From: Deltaproteobacteria bacterium HGW-Deltaproteobacteria-19
Lineage (GTDB): Bacteria > Desulfobacterota > Syntrophia > Syntrophales > PHBD01
Assembly (NCBI GenBank): GCA_002841865.1
Contig: PHBD01000005.1
Location: forward strand, 62,001-126,000
DNA length: 64,000 bases
Direction: 5' to 3'
The translations under genes were made by a program, and so were the position numbers. The notes beneath the pieces were generated by a model. That model was not told the origin of the DNA. It ran no database searches and worked only from the letters and a program-made list of their open reading frames with translations. Positions 1,305-10,573 of the stretch are shown here, piece after piece (position 1 is the first letter of the stretch; every line of letters begins with the position of its first letter).

Positions 1305-1504
1305 TCCAATTGTTTCCGGGGAGTTGCGCAAGCATCTGATTTTTCACTAAGCATCTTTAGTGTTGCAGAATCGCCGGAAGGCGAGTACATTCGCAATGTT
1401 TCAATCACTTCCCACAATTATTCTCCTGATTGTCAGAGCGCTGCCACCATAGGGCAATAATAGATAGCGCCTGTCATTTACAGCGGAATCAATGGAAATA
1501 ATAA

Positions 1505-4500
1505 GTGAATAAAGCGACGAGGGAAAAAAGTACAAAGGCTTCCGGCACAATGAAGCATAGCCGGGGACAGGCAACCACGCGCTCAACCGCTGGACCGGGT
1601 TTTGACTTTGAAGACCAAGTCGCTGCATGGTTGCTGTTGAAGATGCTGACTGGCGAGGGCATGCCCGGAATGGACGGATGTATCGGCAGGCGGATACAGT
1701 CGCAGACCGGTACACTCGGGTGGAAGATCGATGATCTTCTAGTTACGTGCGTGTCTGAATCGCAAGACTCCTTTTTGGCTCTCTCTTGTAAGAGTAATCT
1801 GCAGGTGACAAGTGCTGGTCTTCCTCGCGACTTTGTCAGCATTGCCTGGCAACAGTTCAGGATTGGCAGGACCGGACCAATGCGTCACGGTCGTGATCGT
1901 ATTGCGTTAGTAACAAGGGGACGCCATCCAGGGTTTCAGGCGGCTTGGACGGACATAAAGAATGCATGTACCGGCAGTGATCCTATGCTTGCGGTAGGAA
2001 GAATCCGGGGAACAAAGAAGCACAAAGTCATCTTTGATAATGTGATGGAAGCAGTACGGGCTCTGTCAGTTGAAGCCACGAATGAAGAAGTACTAGAATT
2101 CATTCGTCACCTCCATGTTATCCCCAGGGATTTCGATCTTGATCCATCGGAGGATCGTGAAGCCGCGATCATGCAGTGTAGACGAGTCCTTGCCAGTGAG
2201 TCACCGATTGAGGCACGAAGACTTTGGCAAACCCTGGTGGATCGGGCCCGCAAGAGCCGTCTCGGAGACGGCACAATCGATCTACCACTTCTTTGGCACG
2301 AGTTGCGTAGCCAGTTTCAACTCCATGAACACCCAAATTATTCTTCAGGATGGGCTCTACTCAGAGCCTACACGTTTGAGCATCTAAGTAAAATTGAAGC
2401 GTCCTTGCCTTCTGGATATTCGCTAGATCGATCCGAAGACGGTGGCAAGCTCACTCAAGCCATATTAGACAACCTTATTGTCATTCTATATGGCGACTCA
2501 GGAGTCGGAAAATCAGCGCTTGCGAAAACTATCTTGGCCAATCGATTCCCAGATGCGGAACACGTATGGTTAGGTCCAGACACACTTGACGTCACGCTGA
2601 CCGAAGTAGAACGCATAAAGACCGACTTAACCCATCCGTTACACACAACGCTTAAAGCGACGGTACACTCGAAAAACATACTCGTGATTGATGCATCAGA
2701 ACGCATCAGCAGTGAGTTGGTTCCGCAAGTTAAACGTTTGGTTGAAGCGCTTATATGCGAGCATATCCCGGGCGAAATCCCCGTTTGGCAGATTCTAATC
2801 ATTGGTCAAACTGAAGCATGGATAGACGGGCGAATGTTAGGTCTTCTAGGCAACAAACGATCGGCACATATCGAACTGGGCCCTGTTCCCATTACCGAGG
2901 TTCAGGCTGCTCTGCAGTTGACGCCAGGATTGAGCTGGCTTGCCCTGCAGGATGACGCCGTCGCAATCCTCACAAATCTTCGAGCCCTCGCATGGGTTAT
3001 GCAGGCAGCAGCGCACTTTCAACAGGAAGAAGATATCGAAAGAAGACTATCGCTCACAACAATCGCGGATTCGCTTTGGAATTTCTGGACTAACGGACAG
3101 TTGCAGCTGCAAGGAATACTGATGCGGCTTTCAGAGCGAGAGGCTTCCTTCGAGTACAGCATTTGTCTTAGCGAGTTACAACCCCTGGAAGCTCTCGCTC
3201 TGCAAGAGCGGCCTCGGCAGCTACCTGTGCGAATCACTGCAAGGAATCATGTTGAATTTCAGCATGACCTCGCGGCCGACTGGGCGCGCTTCCAAAGACT
3301 GAAGGAAATCTCAGATGATACCTCTCGATGGGCGGCTCTAGCGCAAAACCCATTGTGGACTGGTGCGATGCGCATGCTTGGTCAGTACCTTTTGCGTGAG
3401 AGCGCCGGAGATCGTACCAAATGGGATATTGCCTTTGAGAAGCTGGATCAGCCTCAACAATGGATGGGATTGGCGACGGACATCCTGCTCGACGCATTAT
3501 GCCTGGATCCTCTCGCGGATTCACTTCTAATGGAACGCGCAGATCTGTTATTCGCCAATCACGGCACATTACTCAATCGGCTTCTCTTGCGTTTCCATCA
3601 CATTGCTACCGAACCAAGCGGTCAGTTTCCGTTACCGCAAGCAGATCCAACATTAGGTCTGTATATCGAGGCACAATATCGCTTACCCATCATTACCCGT
3701 TGGCCTCCTGTGATCCGTTTTTTGGCCGCACACCGTGACCGCGTGGCACGACTGATGTCTTCAGTCGTTGCTAGTCTATGTGAGAGATGGCTCACAACGA
3801 CGCCCGTCGAACTCATCCCTGGGTCACCAATGCCGTTCCGGAAGGTCATCGCGGAAGTCGCTCTATCTTCCGCCAGAGAGATCCAGGTTGCAAAAGGCAG
3901 GGGTGTTATCTTCGCCAACGATTCAGAAAAGCCAATCTATGCCGCGGCCTTGGCCGGCGCGCCAGATCTTTCTGATGAGGTATCTGCATGGGCGTTGGAA
4001 ATGGCTCAGCGCCGTCCGCCGCATGCTGACGTCATCGCACAAATCGAAGAGCATAGAAGGCAGCAGGCTCGAGAACATGCGGAGCGGCTCCGAACCGATC
4101 CTAAATACCAGGCTTGGTACCAAGAGCGAGATAGGATGATAATTCCATCAATAGCATCTGCCAGGAAGACTTTGCCTCCCTGGCCGCTTGGACCACTGAA
4201 CCGTGTTGATGGAAGCTTCCGTGAATGCTGTATACATTCGCGATCTCTCGCTCCGCTGATGAAGGTCAGGCCAGAGGTGGCTGCGGAGGTGTTGCTAGCT
4301 GTACTCATTGAGGATTCTCCCGAGGAAGAATACGGCCAACACATCAGATTTAATGATCGCTATGGCATGGAATTCGACCAAGGCAGTTATCCGACCGCTT
4401 ATTGGCAGAGCCCATTCCACGCATTTCTTAGTATCTCGCCTGATATTGCGTTAGATACATTGATCAGGCTCGTAGACTTCTGCACAGAGCGTTGGGAATA

Positions 4501-6853
4501 CGAAAGGAACCGTCACCACACCCATCGTATCGGTATTGTTCTCGACTTACCGGGAGGTACGAAAAAGGAGTTCTTTGGAAATCATTTAGTTCTGAATTGG
4601 AGCCAGCAAAATGCTACAGGTGCCGGCCAGTTGTATTGCGCGTTGGCTGCTCTTGAGAAGTGGTTATGTACTAGTATCGATGGTGGTGCAGACGTTACAC
4701 CCTATATTCAACGCTTGTTTGAAGAGTCACATTCTGTAGCGGTCTTAGGAGTATTATTGAACGTCGGGAAGCACTGTTCTGTCCTGTTCGAGACTCTGCT
4801 TCGTCCTCTTCTCGCCTGCAAAGAGCTTTATTTCTGGGACAAATATCGAATTGATGCTTTACCGTATGCGTTCGATGAAGGATCTTGGGCACGTCAAGGT
4901 GAAATCGTTTTTCAGATGGCGCGTGAGTGGTGGTCCGTTGCGTATCGCAGGGTTCCATTATCGAGCATAGCGGCCCATCTGGTAGCATTCAGACCCGAGA
5001 TCGCATCATTCTTGGCCATTACCATGAAGCAGTGGGAAGTACCGACTGATGAGAAGTCGGCACTTGAACTTCGCCTACTTCAATCTGTGCTCGATCGCGA
5101 TAACTACAAAGAAGGCCCTGGTGACACCACCGGCCAGATGTTATTCGACTATCCAGAAACTTTACAGAGAGATGTTGAGCGCTATCAACAAGCAATCAAC
5201 TCGACGCTCCGAATCATCTCCCTTCCTGACGAGTGCAGACAGTTGCTCGGAATGACTTCCGAATTAACAGACGAAAAAGCGGAGGATCTTGCTTGCTTTT
5301 TAAGTACAGCTTTGTCTGTCAAGAATACGGATGTCGATGAGGATGATCAACGCCTGGCAAAGGTCGCTGTTGCTTCGACCCTACTCGCGCGGGCTCGACT
5401 CTGGCTTGAAGCGCATCCCGAAGGATATGAAAATACCAGAGAGATAGTACGCGTTGCTGTCGAGCAGCTGAGTAATGATAGCAATATGTTTCGCAGCCAT
5501 GTGCTGCGCAACTATAATGGAGTGGAGTTCGTTGCGCATGCTGTTATGTGTGACTTTATAAACTCTCCAGCTTCTTCCTATGCGGGGCATGCAGTACTCC
5601 GTGTTTTGACCAGCGGTAGTGAGGTGGCCGTTACGACGGTGACGTCGATTGCATATATGCATTGGAAACAACTAGGCAGTACTTGGTGGCGTCTTCTTGA
5701 GATTTCTTTGCTCTGGTGTGCCCTTGCCATTCTGGTTCCCCGACAATATGAACCTCATATACTGCACGAGCTATGGGGACACTGGCTGAAACGATTACGA
5801 AATTGCACGTTAGCGAAGCCTGAAACGACTTTAACGAGCGTTGACCCAGTCGCTATCACGAAGCGTCTTGAGCGCATTGAGCGGCGGCGCTGGGTCAGAG
5901 AATATGAGCGAGAGGATAGCCTGCTCAGAAGAGATCCTAGCGAGCGACGAGCCACTGGACTTGACACACGTATTCTGCAGGCGATGTTCTCCTGGCTATT
6001 TCAGCCTCCTCCAGTCGGAACGCAACAGTCCGATCCAATGGATACAAAGAACCGGCTCGAACTGCTGAAGCGCTTGCTGGACTTGGAGCTACGGTCGTAT
6101 ACCGAGCTTGAGGAATGCGATCGCCACGAACCTCTGACGCAGATAGGCTATGAGATTGTCCAGTCAATTGCCAAACTGATACCAAAATTGCCCATGAATG
6201 ACTCAATAGAGCTGTGGCAGCCACTATTTCGGTTGGGTGGCAACGCTCATTACATCATCGGTCATTTCATCGATTATTGGCTGAAGCAGGTTTCACGGAA
6301 TTGCGATATTGCTGTGTTTGCTCGTCACTGGAGGTCAATGATCGAGTGTGCATTGGCGTCTCCACAATGGATCTCCGGCCGTCGGTGGTACTACGGCGAA
6401 CAACTGCTGTGGCGCTTGCTGGGATGTGGCTCTGAATTGTCGCTAGATCAAGTTGAGGGTCACAAGGTAACGGTTCTCCAAATGAAGGATCTATATGAGT
6501 CATGGGCAGAAAAGCATCTTGATCGAGAAGAAGACTGCATCCCACATTTTTGCATGTTCTTATGCTCCGCTACTGGGCGCCTTATCCGTCTCGATGGACT
6601 ACAATGGTTGCTCCGGTCCATTCAACGGCAGGCAGCAGAAAATTTCCGATGGAGACGATCGGGTACTGCTGAAACCTTGACGGACCTGATTGATGTGGTG
6701 CTAACGGAACATATTGATGAAGTGGTAAAAAATCCGCTGACGCGCGACACTCTGCTGGAATTGGTTGCAATTCTTGTGAAGCGACAGGCGCCTGTTGCAT
6801 TGGCACTTCAGGAGCGTGTGAAAGCAAAGTTGACCAGCAGGCAATCTGGGTAG
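1505..6853 (+). CDS. Giant STAND NTPase with N-terminal nuclease-like domain (Avs-like, putative antiviral sensor)
   Basis: A 1782-aa protein. Residues about 30-110 (GFDFEDQVAAW, then WKIDDLLV, then LALSCKSN) follow the layout of Cap4/DUF4297-type PD-(D/E)xK nucleases, with E36, D76/D77 and K96 as candidate catalytic residues; the acidic or Gln residue usually two before the Lys is Ser here. A P-loop GDSGVGKS (330-337) and a Walker B-like ILVIDASE (392-399) define a STAND/NACHT-type ATPase. The remaining 1200 or so residues look alpha-helical with no motif I recognise, as expected for a ligand-sensing C terminus. This order (nuclease, NTPase, long sensor) matches Avs antiviral STAND proteins, which oligomerise on phage terminase or portal and then degrade DNA. 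The reading frame is intact. The start is GTG at 1505; an ATG at codon 16 is an alternative. The gene is more AT-rich than its neighbours and has no operon partner, suggesting horizontal transfer. The defence role is inferred from architecture. Confidence 0.72.
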   Translation: MNKATREKSTKASGTMKHSRGQATTRSTAGPGFDFEDQVAAWLLLKMLTGEGMPGMDGCIGRRIQSQTGTLGWKIDDLLVTCVSESQDSFLALSCKSNLQVTSAGLPRDFVSIAWQQFRIGRTGPMRHGRDRIALVTRGRHPGFQAAWTDIKNACTGSDPMLAVGRIRGTKKHKVIFDNVMEAVRALSVEATNEEVLEFIRHLHVIPRDFDLDPSEDREAAIMQCRRVLASESPIEARRLWQTLVDRARKSRLGDGTIDLPLLWHELRSQFQLHEHPNYSSGWALLRAYTFEHLSKIEASLPSGYSLDRSEDGGKLTQAILDNLIVILYGDSGVGKSALAKTILANRFPDAEHVWLGPDTLDVTLTEVERIKTDLTHPLHTTLKATVHSKNILVIDASERISSELVPQVKRLVEALICEHIPGEIPVWQILIIGQTEAWIDGRMLGLLGNKRSAHIELGPVPITEVQAALQLTPGLSWLALQDDAVAILTNLRALAWVMQAAAHFQQEEDIERRLSLTTIADSLWNFWTNGQLQLQGILMRLSEREASFEYSICLSELQPLEALALQERPRQLPVRITARNHVEFQHDLAADWARFQRLKEISDDTSRWAALAQNPLWTGAMRMLGQYLLRESAGDRTKWDIAFEKLDQPQQWMGLATDILLDALCLDPLADSLLMERADLLFANHGTLLNRLLLRFHHIATEPSGQFPLPQADPTLGLYIEAQYRLPIITRWPPVIRFLAAHRDRVARLMSSVVASLCERWLTTTPVELIPGSPMPFRKVIAEVALSSAREIQVAKGRGVIFANDSEKPIYAAALAGAPDLSDEVSAWALEMAQRRPPHADVIAQIEEHRRQQAREHAERLRTDPKYQAWYQERDRMIIPSIASARKTLPPWPLGPLNRVDGSFRECCIHSRSLAPLMKVRPEVAAEVLLAVLIEDSPEEEYGQHIRFNDRYGMEFDQGSYPTAYWQSPFHAFLSISPDIALDTLIRLVDFCTERWEYERNRHHTHRIGIVLDLPGGTKKEFFGNHLVLNWSQQNATGAGQLYCALAALEKWLCTSIDGGADVTPYIQRLFEESHSVAVLGVLLNVGKHCSVLFETLLRPLLACKELYFWDKYRIDALPYAFDEGSWARQGEIVFQMAREWWSVAYRRVPLSSIAAHLVAFRPEIASFLAITMKQWEVPTDEKSALELRLLQSVLDRDNYKEGPGDTTGQMLFDYPETLQRDVERYQQAINSTLRIISLPDECRQLLGMTSELTDEKAEDLACFLSTALSVKNTDVDEDDQRLAKVAVASTLLARARLWLEAHPEGYENTREIVRVAVEQLSNDSNMFRSHVLRNYNGVEFVAHAVMCDFINSPASSYAGHAVLRVLTSGSEVAVTTVTSIAYMHWKQLGSTWWRLLEISLLWCALAILVPRQYEPHILHELWGHWLKRLRNCTLAKPETTLTSVDPVAITKRLERIERRRWVREYEREDSLLRRDPSERRATGLDTRILQAMFSWLFQPPPVGTQQSDPMDTKNRLELLKRLLDLELRSYTELEECDRHEPLTQIGYEIVQSIAKLIPKLPMNDSIELWQPLFRLGGNAHYIIGHFIDYWLKQVSRNCDIAVFARHWRSMIECALASPQWISGRRWYYGEQLLWRLLGCGSELSLDQVEGHKVTVLQMKDLYESWAEKHLDREEDCIPHFCMFLCSATGRLIRLDGLQWLLRSIQRQAAENFRWRRSGTAETLTDLIDVVLTEHIDEVVKNPLTRDTLLELVAILVKRQAPVALALQERVKAKLTSRQSG

Positions 6854-6939
6854 TTGTGGGTCACAATCGTGTAATCCTCGGCCTTCTGGAGAGTCTCCTC
6901 CAATGTCTGGTAGGCATATCTCACCAAACTGATCCGCAT
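6808..6939 (-). pseudogene. Small 43-codon frame antisense to the 3' end of the STAND gene
   Basis: On the minus strand an ATG at 6939 opens a 43-codon frame beginning MRISLVRYAYQTLEETLQ and ending inside the 3' end of the convergent STAND gene. It follows the TAA of the amber-containing frame at 6950 by about 10 nt, so the two may be pieces of one former cluster. I do not recognise the sequence. It could be a remnant or chance. Confidence 0.25.
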
Positions 6940-6949
6940 GGCCGCCCCG

Positions 6950-7210
6950 TTACCTCCCGGTTTTCTTGGCTGCCTTTGGATTATCCTTTCCCCTCTGCTC
7001 TTTTCTGGCTTGCTTCTGCAGACACTCCCGAACGTCGTCGGATGCCATTTGCTGGACCTAGCAAGGCGTGAACCGCTTCTTGTCGATCCCGAAAAATGAT
7101 ATAATGGCGTCCATTTTGTCCTTTATGCGTTTAAGTTGGTCTGCATCCCTCTTTTCATCGGCCGTGAGCCGTTTCTACAAGGCGGCCAATCGCCTTTCAA
7201 TGTCTGTCAG
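6950..7210 (-). pseudogene. Coding-like frame with two in-frame TAG codons (decayed gene or amber readthrough)
   Basis: Reading the minus strand from a CTG at 7210 (context matches MTDIERRLAAL) gives 86 residues of strongly coding-like, charged, helical sequence ending in TAA at 6952-6950. It is interrupted only by TAG at 7177-7175 and 7060-7058, both in the same frame. The segments include KRLTADEKRDADQLKRI and VQQMASDDVRECLQKQ. No frameshift is needed to join them. Either a small gene is decaying, having lost its ATG and gained two stops, or TAG is read through, as happens in phages that recode amber as Gln. Decay is more likely given the adjacent debris. Function not recognised. Confidence 0.45.
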
Positions 7211-7254
7211 TCCGTCCCCATTTGCATAACCCCCTGTGCCGCCCGGTTCACCCG

Positions 7255-7287
7255 ATAGGGCCACCCCAGGGATCGAGGCGGCCCTAT
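7255..7287. repeat. 33-bp imperfect palindrome
   Basis: ATAGGGCC at 7255 is the exact inverse of GGCCCTAT ending at 7287. With two G-T pairs the stem extends to 13 bp around a 7-nt loop. No T-run follows on either strand, so it is not a standard intrinsic terminator. It lies just downstream of the 67-aa gene on the minus strand. Confidence 0.5.
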
Positions 7288-7321
7288 TGTGCCCTTTAGC
7301 TCGGTTGTTTTACGGCCGTGA

Positions 7322-7525
7322 TCAACTCGGTGTTTTTTTGTCGTTTAGGATTTTCAGGCACTTTCCCATACATTCCTGGATCGCGTCAGCTACGGTGAAG
7401 AGCGGAGCACTGATCTTGTATACCCCCTGTCGATACTCATCCATGTCTGTCAATTCGAGCAGGGAGGCAAGTCCGTGGATCCGGTAAAGTTCCTTCATCA
7501 TCTCGTCACGATGATTAATGTTCAT
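7322..7525 (-). CDS. Small hypothetical protein, 67 aa
   Basis: A 67-aa protein with an excellent ribosome site (GGAGGT, 5 nt before the ATG at 7525) and coding-like composition, including the segments HRDEMMKELYRIHGLASLLE and YKISAPLFTVADAIQECMGK. It is probably a soluble helical protein; I do not recognise a family. It is second in a tandem pair with the 62-aa gene 14 bp upstream. Near its end an A7 run (7332-7338) precedes the stop; a -1 shift there would replace the tail TPS by NTELITAVKQPS, which reads more naturally, so the annotated stop may reflect a homopolymer slip or programmed shift. Confidence 0.6.
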   Translation of the reverse strand: MNINHRDEMMKELYRIHGLASLLELTDMDEYRQGVYKISAPLFTVADAIQECMGKCLKILNDKKTPS

Positions 7526-7539
7526 TTTCGACCTCCGCT

Positions 7540-7728
7540 TTATTCCAAATAGCCTCTATCTTTCTTCTGAACGCCTATAAGGACATCCACGATATCCATA
7601 ACTTCCACAGCCTCTGCATTTGTAGTCATCCCCGATAAGTGCCTGATCCTCCGAATGGCGTTGAATGAAGCATGGTACAATTCATCAAATAAATCCCAAC
7701 TGACCATTTTCTCACCCGTCTTTTCCAT
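7540..7728 (-). CDS. Small hypothetical protein, 62 aa
   Basis: A 62-aa acidic, helical protein (segments SWDLFDELYHASFNAIRRIR and NAEAVEVMDIVDVLIGVQKK) with AGGGA about 8 nt before the ATG at 7728. It is followed after 14 bp by the 67-aa gene on the same strand, so the two are likely co-transcribed. The pair resembles small accessory-region genes. I do not recognise the family; a toxin-antitoxin or phage-remnant origin is possible, but nothing in the sequence proves it. Confidence 0.55.
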   Translation of the reverse strand: MEKTGEKMVSWDLFDELYHASFNAIRRIRHLSGMTTNAEAVEVMDIVDVLIGVQKKDRGYLE

Positions 7729-8065
7729 CGTTCGTCCCTACATAGACACAAAAAGGCCATGGACGGCCTACGCTCATATCAAGCGCCGGGGCATTGTAGC
7801 TACCCGTGTCCATGACCAGATTGGTGTCTACGCCACAAACACAAAAACCCATAACGGAGGGCTCCCGGATATGATTTTAGGCGATTCCATATTACCGAAT
7901 CAGGCCCCTGTGTTAAGAGGATTTCGCATCCAGGGAGTTTTCTCCCGCCCGGACAGGTCAACTGTCGTCTTGGCTGATTTCCCTATGGCGCTTCATGGTG
8001 CCACTGTTTTTTCTGTTGACCCCCTGTCCAGGATTCATGAAAATACAACCCGGGAGGAATGCGAT
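7729..8065. other. Intergenic region between divergent small genes and DUF362 gene
   Basis: No gene is evident in these 337 bases. On the minus strand a 5-bp stem (AGGCC/GGCCT, 7769-7754) followed by TTTTT could be a weak intrinsic terminator or attenuator upstream of the 62-aa gene. The right end carries GGGAGGA, the ribosome site of the DUF362 gene. An in-frame extension of that gene upstream to about 7655 lacks a signal-like start and is not believed. Confidence 0.5.
7750..7769 (-). terminator. Weak intrinsic terminator or attenuator
   Basis: On the minus strand AGGCC, a 6-nt loop and GGCCT are followed directly by TTTTT, about 20 nt before the start of the 62-aa gene. The stem is only 5 bp, so termination would be weak. 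Confidence 0.25.
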
Positions 8066-8965
8066 ATGAACCGCAGGGAGTTCCTGAAAACGGCTGCTGT
8101 CACCGGGGCGACCCTGGCGCTGCCGGGTCTCCTGCTGCCCGACGGTTCGGCGGCGGCCGCCGAGAAGCTGGACATGGTCGTGGCGAAGGGGCCTTCTCCG
8201 GCCCGGATCACCCGGGCGGCGGTGGACGCTTTCGGGGGGATGCGCCGGTTCGTTTCCCGGGGCGACGTCGTCGTGATCAAGCCGAACATCGGCTGGGACC
8301 GTACGCCCGAATACGCCGCCACAACGAATCCCGAGGTGGTGGGAACCCTGGTTCGGCTCTGCTTCGAGGCGGGGGCAAAAAAGGTGAAGGTCTTCGACCA
8401 CACCGTCAGCAGTCCCCGAAGGGCCTACAAGCAGAGCGGCATCGCCGATGCGGCCGCGGCCGCAGGCGCCGATCTGTCCTTCGTGGAAGACCGGAAATTC
8501 AGGGAGATGAAGATCCAGGGCGAGACCCTCAAGTCCTGGCCCCTTTACACGGAGGTCTTCGAGGCCGACAAGATCATCAACGTCCCCATCGCCAAGGTCC
8601 ACGGCACATCCATCCTGACTCTGGGAATGAAGAACTGGATGGGTGTGATGGGGGGATCGCGGGGACGGATTCACCAGCGGATCGACCCGTGCCTCGTCGA
8701 CATGGCCCGGACGGTCCGGCCGACGCTGGTGGTTCTCGACGCCGTCCGGATCCTCGTGGCCAACGGGCCGACGGGCGGAGACCTGTCGGACGTGCGCCTG
8801 ATGAACACGGTGGCGGTGAGCCAGGATCAGGTCGCCGTGGACGCCTTCGGCAGCACCCTGTTCGGTCTCCGGGAGGACGCCCTGGGCTGTGTCCGCCTCG
8901 GACACCAGGCCGGCCTGGGGAACATGCGGCTGGCCCGCCAGAAGATCCGCCGGATCCAGGCATGA
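8066..8965 (+). CDS. Tat-exported DUF362 family protein
   Basis: A 299-aa protein that starts with a twin-arginine signal (MNRREFLKTAAVTGATLAL, then LLLPDGSAAAA), so it should be exported folded, likely with a cofactor. The mature part has the DUF362 pattern: VVVIKPNIGWDR, then INVPIAKVHGTSILTLGMKN and a C-terminal VAVDAFGSTLFG. DUF362 proteins are common in anaerobes and often accompany or are fused to ferredoxin domains; their reaction is not established. The ATG at 8066 was chosen because GGGAGGA precedes it and the Tat motif begins there. The next gene, 30 bp downstream on the same strand, is a membrane polyferredoxin, suggesting a joint extracytoplasmic redox role. Confidence 0.85.
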   Translation: MNRREFLKTAAVTGATLALPGLLLPDGSAAAAEKLDMVVAKGPSPARITRAAVDAFGGMRRFVSRGDVVVIKPNIGWDRTPEYAATTNPEVVGTLVRLCFEAGAKKVKVFDHTVSSPRRAYKQSGIADAAAAAGADLSFVEDRKFREMKIQGETLKSWPLYTEVFEADKIINVPIAKVHGTSILTLGMKNWMGVMGGSRGRIHQRIDPCLVDMARTVRPTLVVLDAVRILVANGPTGGDLSDVRLMNTVAVSQDQVAVDAFGSTLFGLREDALGCVRLGHQAGLGNMRLARQKIRRIQA

Positions 8966-8995
8966 AAAACGCGTTCCGGCCCTTGCCTCGAGGGG

Positions 8996-10573
8996 ATGGA
9001 GAATGCCCTCGCCCCTGAAAGCGGAAAGACGGTGATCCGAAAAGCGCGACTTGCCTCTCAGGCCTTGTTCCTGCTTCTCTTCCTGTGGCTCTTCCTCCAG
9101 ACGGAGTCGAAAGGAGCGGACCAGCTCGGGTATCCGGTCAAGTTTTTCCTCGACGCCGATCCCCTTCTGGTGCTGACGGCGATCCTGTCGAGCCGGTCGT
9201 TTCTTCCCTCGATGCTGCTGGCGGGGGCGGTGGCCCTGGCGACGGTCTTTATGGGCCGGTTTTTCTGCGGCTGGGTGTGTCCCCTGGGGACGCTCCACAA
9301 CCTCACGGGCTCCGTCGTCCGGAAGCGCCGGCGGACCGTCCCGAAGGGGAGCTTCCGCCTGAAGTATCTGCTCCTGGTTTTCCTGCTGGCCTCCTCCGCT
9401 TTTACCCTTCAGATCACCGGCATTTTCGATCCCCTGAGCCTTCTGATCCGTTCCCTGTCCCTTTCTGTCTATCCGGCCTTCCAGTACGGCGTGACGTCCT
9501 TCCTCGACGCGCTGTCCCGCTGGCCGGTCCCGGGGCTGGCGCCGGCGGCGGACTGGCTGCTCGATATTCTCCACAAGGGCGTTCTATCCCTCCGGCAGCC
9601 ATTGTTCAACCAGGGGTTCCTTCTGGGGCTCCTGTTCCTCGGCATCCTGGCGCTCAACTGGGTCGAGCGGCGATACTGGTGCCGTTATCTCTGCCCGCTC
9701 GGCGCACTTCTGGGAATCCTCTCCCGCCGGTCCCTGCTGTCCCGGTCCGTCAGCGAAGGCTGCGATTCCTGCGGCGCCTGCGTTCCGGGCTGTGAGGGGG
9801 GATGCTTCCCCCAGAGCCCCGATAAATGGCGCAAGGCCGAATGCTACCTCTGCGGAAACTGCGACGACGCCTGCCCGAAGAATGTCGTGTCCTTCGGCTT
9901 TGGCAGGAATCCCGCCGCGCAGGCGCTGGACCTGGGAAGGCGCCGGGTTATCGCTGCCGCCGCGGCAGGGGTCGCGGCGGTGCCGCTTCTCCGGATCGGG
10001 CCGACCCGGGCTGGACAGGCGGACCCGCGGCTGATCCGCCCCCCGGGGTCACTGGAGGAAAGGGAGTTCCTGCGGCGCTGTGTCAAGTGCGGCGAGTGTA
10101 TGAAGGTCTGCATCACCGGCGGCCTGCAGCCGGCCCTGACGGAGGCTGCCCCGGAGGGGATCTGGTCTCCGGTCCTGGTGCCCCGGGTCGGTTACTGCGA
10201 GTATCGCTGCACCCTCTGCGGGCAGGTGTGTCCGACGGGGGCGATCCGCAGCCTGAAACCGGCGGAGAAGCCGGATGTGAAGATCGGTCTTGCCATGATC
10301 GATCCGGGCCGCTGCCTCCCCTGGGCGCACGCCGTGCCGTGCATCGTCTGCGAGGAGGTGTGCCCGACGCCGAAGAAGGCCGTTCTGCTCGAAGAGGTTG
10401 TCGTGAAAGACCGGGACGGCCGCCCGGTGACAGTGAAACAGCCCCGGGTGGACCTGGATCGCTGCATCGGGTGCGGCATCTGCGAGAACCGCTGCCCCGT
10501 TCTGGGAAAGCCGGCCATCTATGTCCTGTCCGTCGGCGAATCGCGATCGAGGGAAAACCAGCTTCTCCTCTAA
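8996..10573 (+). CDS. NapH/MauN-type membrane polyferredoxin
   Basis: A 525-aa membrane iron-sulfur protein. The first half has about five hydrophobic segments with the NapH-type motifs FFCGWVCPLG and YWCRYLCPLGAL. It is followed by Cys clusters CDSCGACVPGC, CYLCGNCDDACP, CVKCGECMKVC, CEYRCTLCGQVCP, CIVCEEVCP and CIGCGICENRCP, consistent with several [4Fe-4S] centres. A second hydrophobic stretch (RRVIAAAAAGVAAVPLL) with preceding arginines lies mid-protein, as if a ferredoxin of NapG type were fused behind NapH. Such proteins pass electrons from quinol or cytoplasmic donors to exported enzymes. With the DUF362 protein upstream it probably forms a redox unit; the partner reductase is unknown. 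GTG at 9030 is an alternative start. Confidence 0.85.
   Translation: MENALAPESGKTVIRKARLASQALFLLLFLWLFLQTESKGADQLGYPVKFFLDADPLLVLTAILSSRSFLPSMLLAGAVALATVFMGRFFCGWVCPLGTLHNLTGSVVRKRRRTVPKGSFRLKYLLLVFLLASSAFTLQITGIFDPLSLLIRSLSLSVYPAFQYGVTSFLDALSRWPVPGLAPAADWLLDILHKGVLSLRQPLFNQGFLLGLLFLGILALNWVERRYWCRYLCPLGALLGILSRRSLLSRSVSEGCDSCGACVPGCEGGCFPQSPDKWRKAECYLCGNCDDACPKNVVSFGFGRNPAAQALDLGRRRVIAAAAAGVAAVPLLRIGPTRAGQADPRLIRPPGSLEEREFLRRCVKCGECMKVCITGGLQPALTEAAPEGIWSPVLVPRVGYCEYRCTLCGQVCPTGAIRSLKPAEKPDVKIGLAMIDPGRCLPWAHAVPCIVCEEVCPTPKKAVLLEEVVVKDRDGRPVTVKQPRVDLDRCIGCGICENRCPVLGKPAIYVLSVGESRSRENQLLL

Follow-up and report, generated by a model that had tools for sequence, protein, structure and literature searches.

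A single-gene Avs-type candidate defence protein combining a predicted Cap4-like nuclease with a deeply divergent Avs4-like sensor

Among the described Avs proteins, Avs1–3 sense the large terminase and Avs4 senses the portal (PMC12724215). Avs proteins form tetramers on their ligand, and this assembly activates the N-terminal nuclease (PMC12198126). Portals with less than 5% sequence similarity are recognized by one Avs through their fold (PMC11249213), and Avs5 senses a jumbo-phage protein that is neither portal nor terminase (PMC12931631). Here, we analyzed a 1,782-aa protein encoded in a 64,000-nucleotide stretch of DNA (hereafter, the window) from a Syntrophales genome, for which the original prediction had proposed a solitary nuclease–STAND protein of a new or divergent Avs type.

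The window protein was most similar to Avs4 (AVAST type 4; EcAvs4, 8dgf; NF041815), with which it shares a STAND NTPase and a full-length, colinear helical sensor of the same predicted fold, but the two sensors are only ~13% identical and the effector of the window protein is Cap4-like instead. Avs3 (8dgc) also has its own N-terminal nuclease and a STAND module and was the top Foldseek match of residues 1–640; however, 8dgc was absent among the listed matches of the C-terminal model, where Avs4 was far ahead. Cap4 and HerA-DUF4297 (6vm6, 6vm5, 9c1m; PF14130) resemble the N-terminal region in nuclease fold and in the E...D...xK arrangement, but they carry Q/ExK and work with a SAVED or HerA partner, whereas the window protein has SxK and a fused STAND module and sensor. 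Animal NLRs (NLRP7, NLRC4, NOD2, NLRP3) share the NACHT-like NTPase and winged helix (Z 16–18), and differ in combining them with CARD/PYD and LRR domains rather than with a bacterial nuclease effector and an Avs4-like sensor.

The protein is encoded by a complete CDS on the forward strand (1505–6853), in which a Cap4-like nuclease, a STAND/NACHT NTPase and an Avs4-like sensor were predicted in succession. Full-length homologues with 34–43% identity span the entire frame, so the ORF is not due to chance, and we confirmed it as a real, intact gene. The GTG start codon fits the family, since the distance from the start to the conserved STxGxGFxFED motif is similar in homologues. The residues named by the original prediction (E36, D76/D77, K96 and GDSGVGKS at 330–337) were all exact in the translation. 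The gene was also AT-rich as described, with a GC content of 50.8% (GC3 0.50) against 60% in the remaining window and a GC3 of 0.87 in the downstream gene.

The gene lies in an AT-richer accessory insertion of 6.7 kb (1328–8008), bordered on the left by a phosphoglucose-isomerase-family gene and on the right by a DUF362 gene. The flanks (5–1327 and 8009–10566) are contiguous in the same-genus genome G001, where they show 91–92% identity and are separated by 12 bp. The 1,782-aa ORF is the only sizeable gene of this clean insertion, whose site is empty in G001, in keeping with its description as solitary. The remaining 1.15 kb of the insert (6854–8008) agrees with its earlier description as debris: the ORF list and searches revealed no intact large gene, only two small ORFs on the reverse strand (7322–7525 and 7540–7728). 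Both this remainder and the 1,782-aa protein occur once in their own genome, and the window copy of the gene is not located within a defence island. The gene is accessory and was horizontally acquired.

For residues 24–279 (1574–2341, forward strand), the AlphaFold2 model (pLDDT 87) predicted a Cap4/DUF4297-type PD-(D/E)XK nuclease domain. VIA-align matched this region to Cap4 6vm6 (Z 15.2 over 202 residues, rmsd 4.3) and 6vm5 (Z 14.6), and to HerA-DUF4297 9c1m (Z 14.0). The original prediction had assigned a Cap4/DUF4297-like N terminus and had named the lack of a nuclease fold in a predicted structure as evidence against itself; the fold is present in the model. In it, E36 (1610–1612, forward strand) lies within the first helix; the strands that come next run alongside D76-D77 (1730–1735, forward strand) and end at K96. 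The putative catalytic E36 and D76-D77 are accompanied by S94-x-K96 (1784–1792, forward strand), a variant of the (D/E/Q)xK motif. E36, D37, Q67, W73, D76, D77, S94 and K96 were invariant in all 34 aligned homologues with the domain, and D76-D77 is also present in four distant relatives (L010, L011, L013 and L062) that have QxK where the clade has SxK. The domain is likely to be an active nuclease, although S94 stands in place of the Q of its relatives. The proposed HMM check for DUF4297 was negative: PF14130 gave no match at E ≤ 1 among the 34 members, in which Pfam found no consistent family for the N-terminal domain. The fold is supported by the predicted structure. On the window protein, Pfam returned weak P-loop matches only; given these weak and inconsistent results, sequence models alone would miss both ends of the protein.

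Residues 280–640 (2342–3424, forward strand) form a predicted STAND/NACHT-like NTPase and winged-helix module, which VIA-align matched to NLRP7, NLRC4, NLRP2 and NLRP3 (Z 17–18) and to Avs4 8dgf (Z 17.0). The Walker A motif or P-loop, GDSGVGKS (residues 330–337; 2492–2515, forward strand), has G330, G333, G335 and K336 invariant in 39 of 39 members, as is the Walker-B-like D396 within ILVIDASERI (2690–2692, forward strand). This NACHT-like predicted fold and the invariant Walker residues bear out the STAND NTPase with a clear P-loop that had been proposed. The module closes with an HD motif, H587-D588 (3263–3268, forward strand; H587 in 39/39 and D588 in 97%), which may correspond to the winged-helix histidine motif of NLRs. 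When residues 1–640 were searched with Foldseek, Avs3 8dgc (first) and Avs4 8dgf were the top matches, in agreement with an overall Avs architecture. Avs3 was considered as the closest type on account of its first place, and was judged less likely because, among the matches listed, those of the whole sensor favour Avs4.

The helical sensor comprises residues 641–1782 (3425–6850, forward strand) and is predicted to be Avs4-like along its length. Residues 600–1782, modelled on their own, reached a pLDDT of 87 and a pTM of 0.78. Foldseek placed Avs4 8dgf, the portal-bound E. coli protein, at the top (3.6e-17), and VIA-align aligned 1,000 residues to it with Z 24.7 (rmsd 6.7 Å), compared with Z 10.5 for the next row. 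The comparison with known Avs structures that had been suggested for the C terminus thus put Avs4 far ahead. Profile–profile alignment agreed with the structural result: the family C terminus matched three Avs4 sequences over 975 colinear columns (hhalign, E 7e-16), E. coli Avs4 alone at E 1.6e-5 and the bridging protein L013 at E 8e-18. As a control, a large 1,633-aa protein from the plasmid of strain EbN1 that carries one of the homologues gave E 0.24. With the distant relative L005 included, a profile search reached 8dgf at 1.3e-48, the match consisting of three colinear segments; without L005, the value was 7e-12. When the family-only C-terminal alignment was searched with hmmsearch against PDB sequences, 8dgf was absent at E ≤ 1, indicating that the homology is real but remote and that bridging sequences or profile–profile methods are needed to detect it. 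A phmmer match of residues 944–1102 to carbonic anhydrase 14 (E 0.085) was dismissed as chance; the region matches Avs4.

PADLOC's Avs4 model matched 21 of 39 members (best 4e-14), and the NCBIfam Avs4 model NF041815 scored the window protein at 39.5 bits (1e-10), below its cut-off of 1,500 bits. Identity of the sensor to EcAvs4 is 10–18%, and its last third is the most variable part. Taken together, the sequence profiles and the models indicate that the C terminus has a deeply divergent Avs4 fold, homologous from end to end. About 1,200 residues that had been called unrecognized are therefore recognizable as Avs4-like (8dgf Z 24.7; E 7e-16). Of the proposal of a new or divergent Avs, the divergence stands, as an Avs4-type sensor with a different effector, and the new sensor group is not supported, since homology of the C terminus to the sensor of Avs4 extends over its full length. 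We file the protein as Avs4-like and not as Avs4 because of the NF041815 score below cut-off and the different effector. With these results, the Avs4 sensor fold also covers a coherent, widespread branch missed by the curated Avs4 model, and current Avs4 profile models under-count such systems.

Profile alignment to Avs4 begins at residue 277, and the N terminus ahead of it is Cap4-like, unlike the EcAvs4 effector. A tree built from the NTPase and sensor, with some long branches unsure, shows at least seven changes of N-terminal type; the types include Cap4-like SxK, Cap4-like QxK, short or absent, trypsin-like, the EcAvs4 type and another (G054). Two bridging proteins, L013 and L062, carry a Cap4-like N terminus of the QxK type ahead of a sensor that is nearer to that of Avs4, and a Haliscomenobacter relative carries a trypsin-like N terminus. 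Five cyanobacterial relatives (L049, L053, L054, L055 and L004) have kept the STAND module and sensor and lack the nuclease. L049, from Symploca, starts with EAD10, which suggests that its effector is recruited in trans. One sensor type has thus been joined to varied N termini (Cap4-like nuclease, EAD10 adaptor, trypsin-like and others), and, given these swaps within the group, an EcAvs4-like effector may not define the Avs4 family. Varied N-terminal effectors were reportedly described already in the original Avs survey, so the nuclease–sensor chimera is not a new principle.

We then considered how widely the protein is distributed. About 30 full-length homologues (34–43% identity) were found, both chromosomal and plasmid-borne, and a scan of the genome collection yielded 44 loci. 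The clade that includes the window protein is well supported on the NTPase and sensor tree (29 rows); its occurrence is patchy and crosses taxonomy, with members in Alpha-, Beta- and Gammaproteobacteria, Myxococcota, Acidobacteriota and Chloroflexota. More distant relatives were found in Cyanobacteriota, Armatimonadota and others. Within the collection of 100 "relatives" genomes, matches occurred in four, one being the window's own genome or an equivalent row; the sole other long match had 28% identity and a different N terminus, and G007 gave a weak match (E 2.3e-4). Searching plasmids with tblastn revealed two full-length relatives of ~40% identity, on pPHRS4 of Paraburkholderia caledonica and on plasmid 2 of Aromatoleum aromaticum EbN1, the latter (L003) interrupted by IS1182. 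Adjoining this split homologue is the 1,633-aa control protein (L003:19859–24760), which has a P-loop-like N-terminal stretch and is unrelated to the sensor in sequence (hhalign E 0.24). Four further homologues (L042, L046, L057 and L058) have frame breaks and may be pseudogenes or assembly errors. The phages collection, searched with the window protein, gave no match. IMG/VR held full-length homologues on two contigs, L060 with Rhs and DUF4123 genes next to it and L061 beside BrxL and Thy1; in view of these neighbours we do not count either contig as proof of phage carriage, and both may represent mobile-element or host sequence.

Some homologues adjoin restriction, BREX, DISARM, Thoeris or Mads genes. 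Among 146 neighbour ORFs, PADLOC matched type IV Mrr, parts of type I and II restriction–modification systems, DrmD, ThsA, BrxL, mad2, mad5 and others, compared with a single match (LeoA) when 36 ordinary ORFs of the window served as the control. As this output gives families and not counts of neighbours, proximity to defence genes is to be read as a tendency and not as a measured enrichment. In Rubrivivax (L036), a type I specificity subunit and Mrr lie upstream of the homologue, and a second, different Cap4–STAND protein with PF14130 and nSTAND_NTPase5 matches (L036:15308–19126) follows it; two STAND proteins share this defence island. The survey of homologue neighbourhoods that had been called for therefore showed an accessory gene of plasmids and chromosomes, in some cases beside defence genes, rather than the core context that would have spoken against a defence role. 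Separately, L013 (4102–9201; G027, a genome of the same order) lies directly after apparent type III restriction–modification genes.

On balance, we consider it probable that the window gene encodes a one-gene Avs-type anti-phage sensor belonging to a divergent lineage within the Avs4 superclade, which would probably sense the portal and act by abortive infection. By analogy with the Avs family, we infer that the portal triggers an oligomerization-gated nuclease, leading to DNA degradation and abortive infection. At rest, the protein would be an inactive, ADP-bound monomer. Its helical C-terminal arm would embrace a conserved late phage protein, most likely the portal, upon which the NACHT-like NTPase would swap its nucleotide and the protein would oligomerize. 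Oligomerization would bring the N-terminal Cap4-type nuclease domains together, and the assembled nucleases would cut both phage and host DNA, so that the infection is stopped and the cell is lost. Membership among the anti-phage Avs-type proteins is, by the same analogy, very likely. The portal as trigger is put forward with modest confidence; a divergent Avs4-type sensor makes it the best guess in place of the broader "terminase or portal". The clade offers a natural test of how much sequence divergence is tolerated by fold-based portal recognition.

At 10–18% identity to EcAvs4, however, ligand identity cannot be safely transferred, and the same architecture and abortive nuclease output could serve a sensor for another phage protein (the large terminase, a capsid or packaging protein, or a new one), making this functionally a new Avs type. 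Avs5, with its jumbo-phage ligand (PMC12931631), provides a precedent, and both the long, well-supported branches that part the clade from Avs4 and the variable last third of the sensor point the same way. We nevertheless regard a different ligand as possible but doubtful, because the Avs4 fold is kept across the whole sensor (Z 24.7) and the recognition by fold of portals less than 5% similar (PMC11249213) makes a conserved ligand compatible with such divergence. Equally tentative is the idea of a separate Avs type in which an Avs4-derived sensor has been re-aimed, at a non-portal protein or at portals of a class not sensed by Avs4, and joined to an unusual SxK Cap4-like nuclease.

It is unlikely that the protein is a STAND switch working outside phage defence, in plasmid or mobile-element exclusion or in programmed death during development. 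The members on plasmids and mobile elements and the cyanobacterial members without a nuclease, one of them with EAD10, would suit such a role, but the sensor is homologous to an experimentally anti-phage receptor and some homologues have restriction, BREX, DISARM, Thoeris or Mads genes as neighbours. A gene that is decaying or no longer active, carried by a mobile insert, might be suspected from the degraded rest of the insert (6854–8008) and from the broken homologues (L003, by IS1182, and the frames of L042, L046, L057 and L058); with all 1,782 codons intact and every family-invariant nuclease and P-loop residue present, we consider this very improbable. The Cap4-like nuclease domain might also recall Cap4 as a CBASS effector that responds to cyclic oligonucleotides, but the C terminus matches Avs4 and not a SAVED domain, and the insert contains no second sizeable gene and hence no adjacent CD-NTase partner, which leaves this the least credible explanation. 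We therefore retain the Avs4-like anti-phage sensor as the preferred reading.

Minor features were also observed in the remainder of the insert. For the 62-aa ORF at 7540–7728 (reverse strand), relatives were searched for and none were found, and the adjoining 67-aa ORF at 7322–7525 (reverse strand) has a weak relative of 36% identity in G026, another genome of the order. Beyond them, a 228-bp stretch (7735–7962) shows 79% identity to a site on a different contig (C1, ~159036–159270) in G001, the same-genus genome, and is possibly a repeat or the end of an element.
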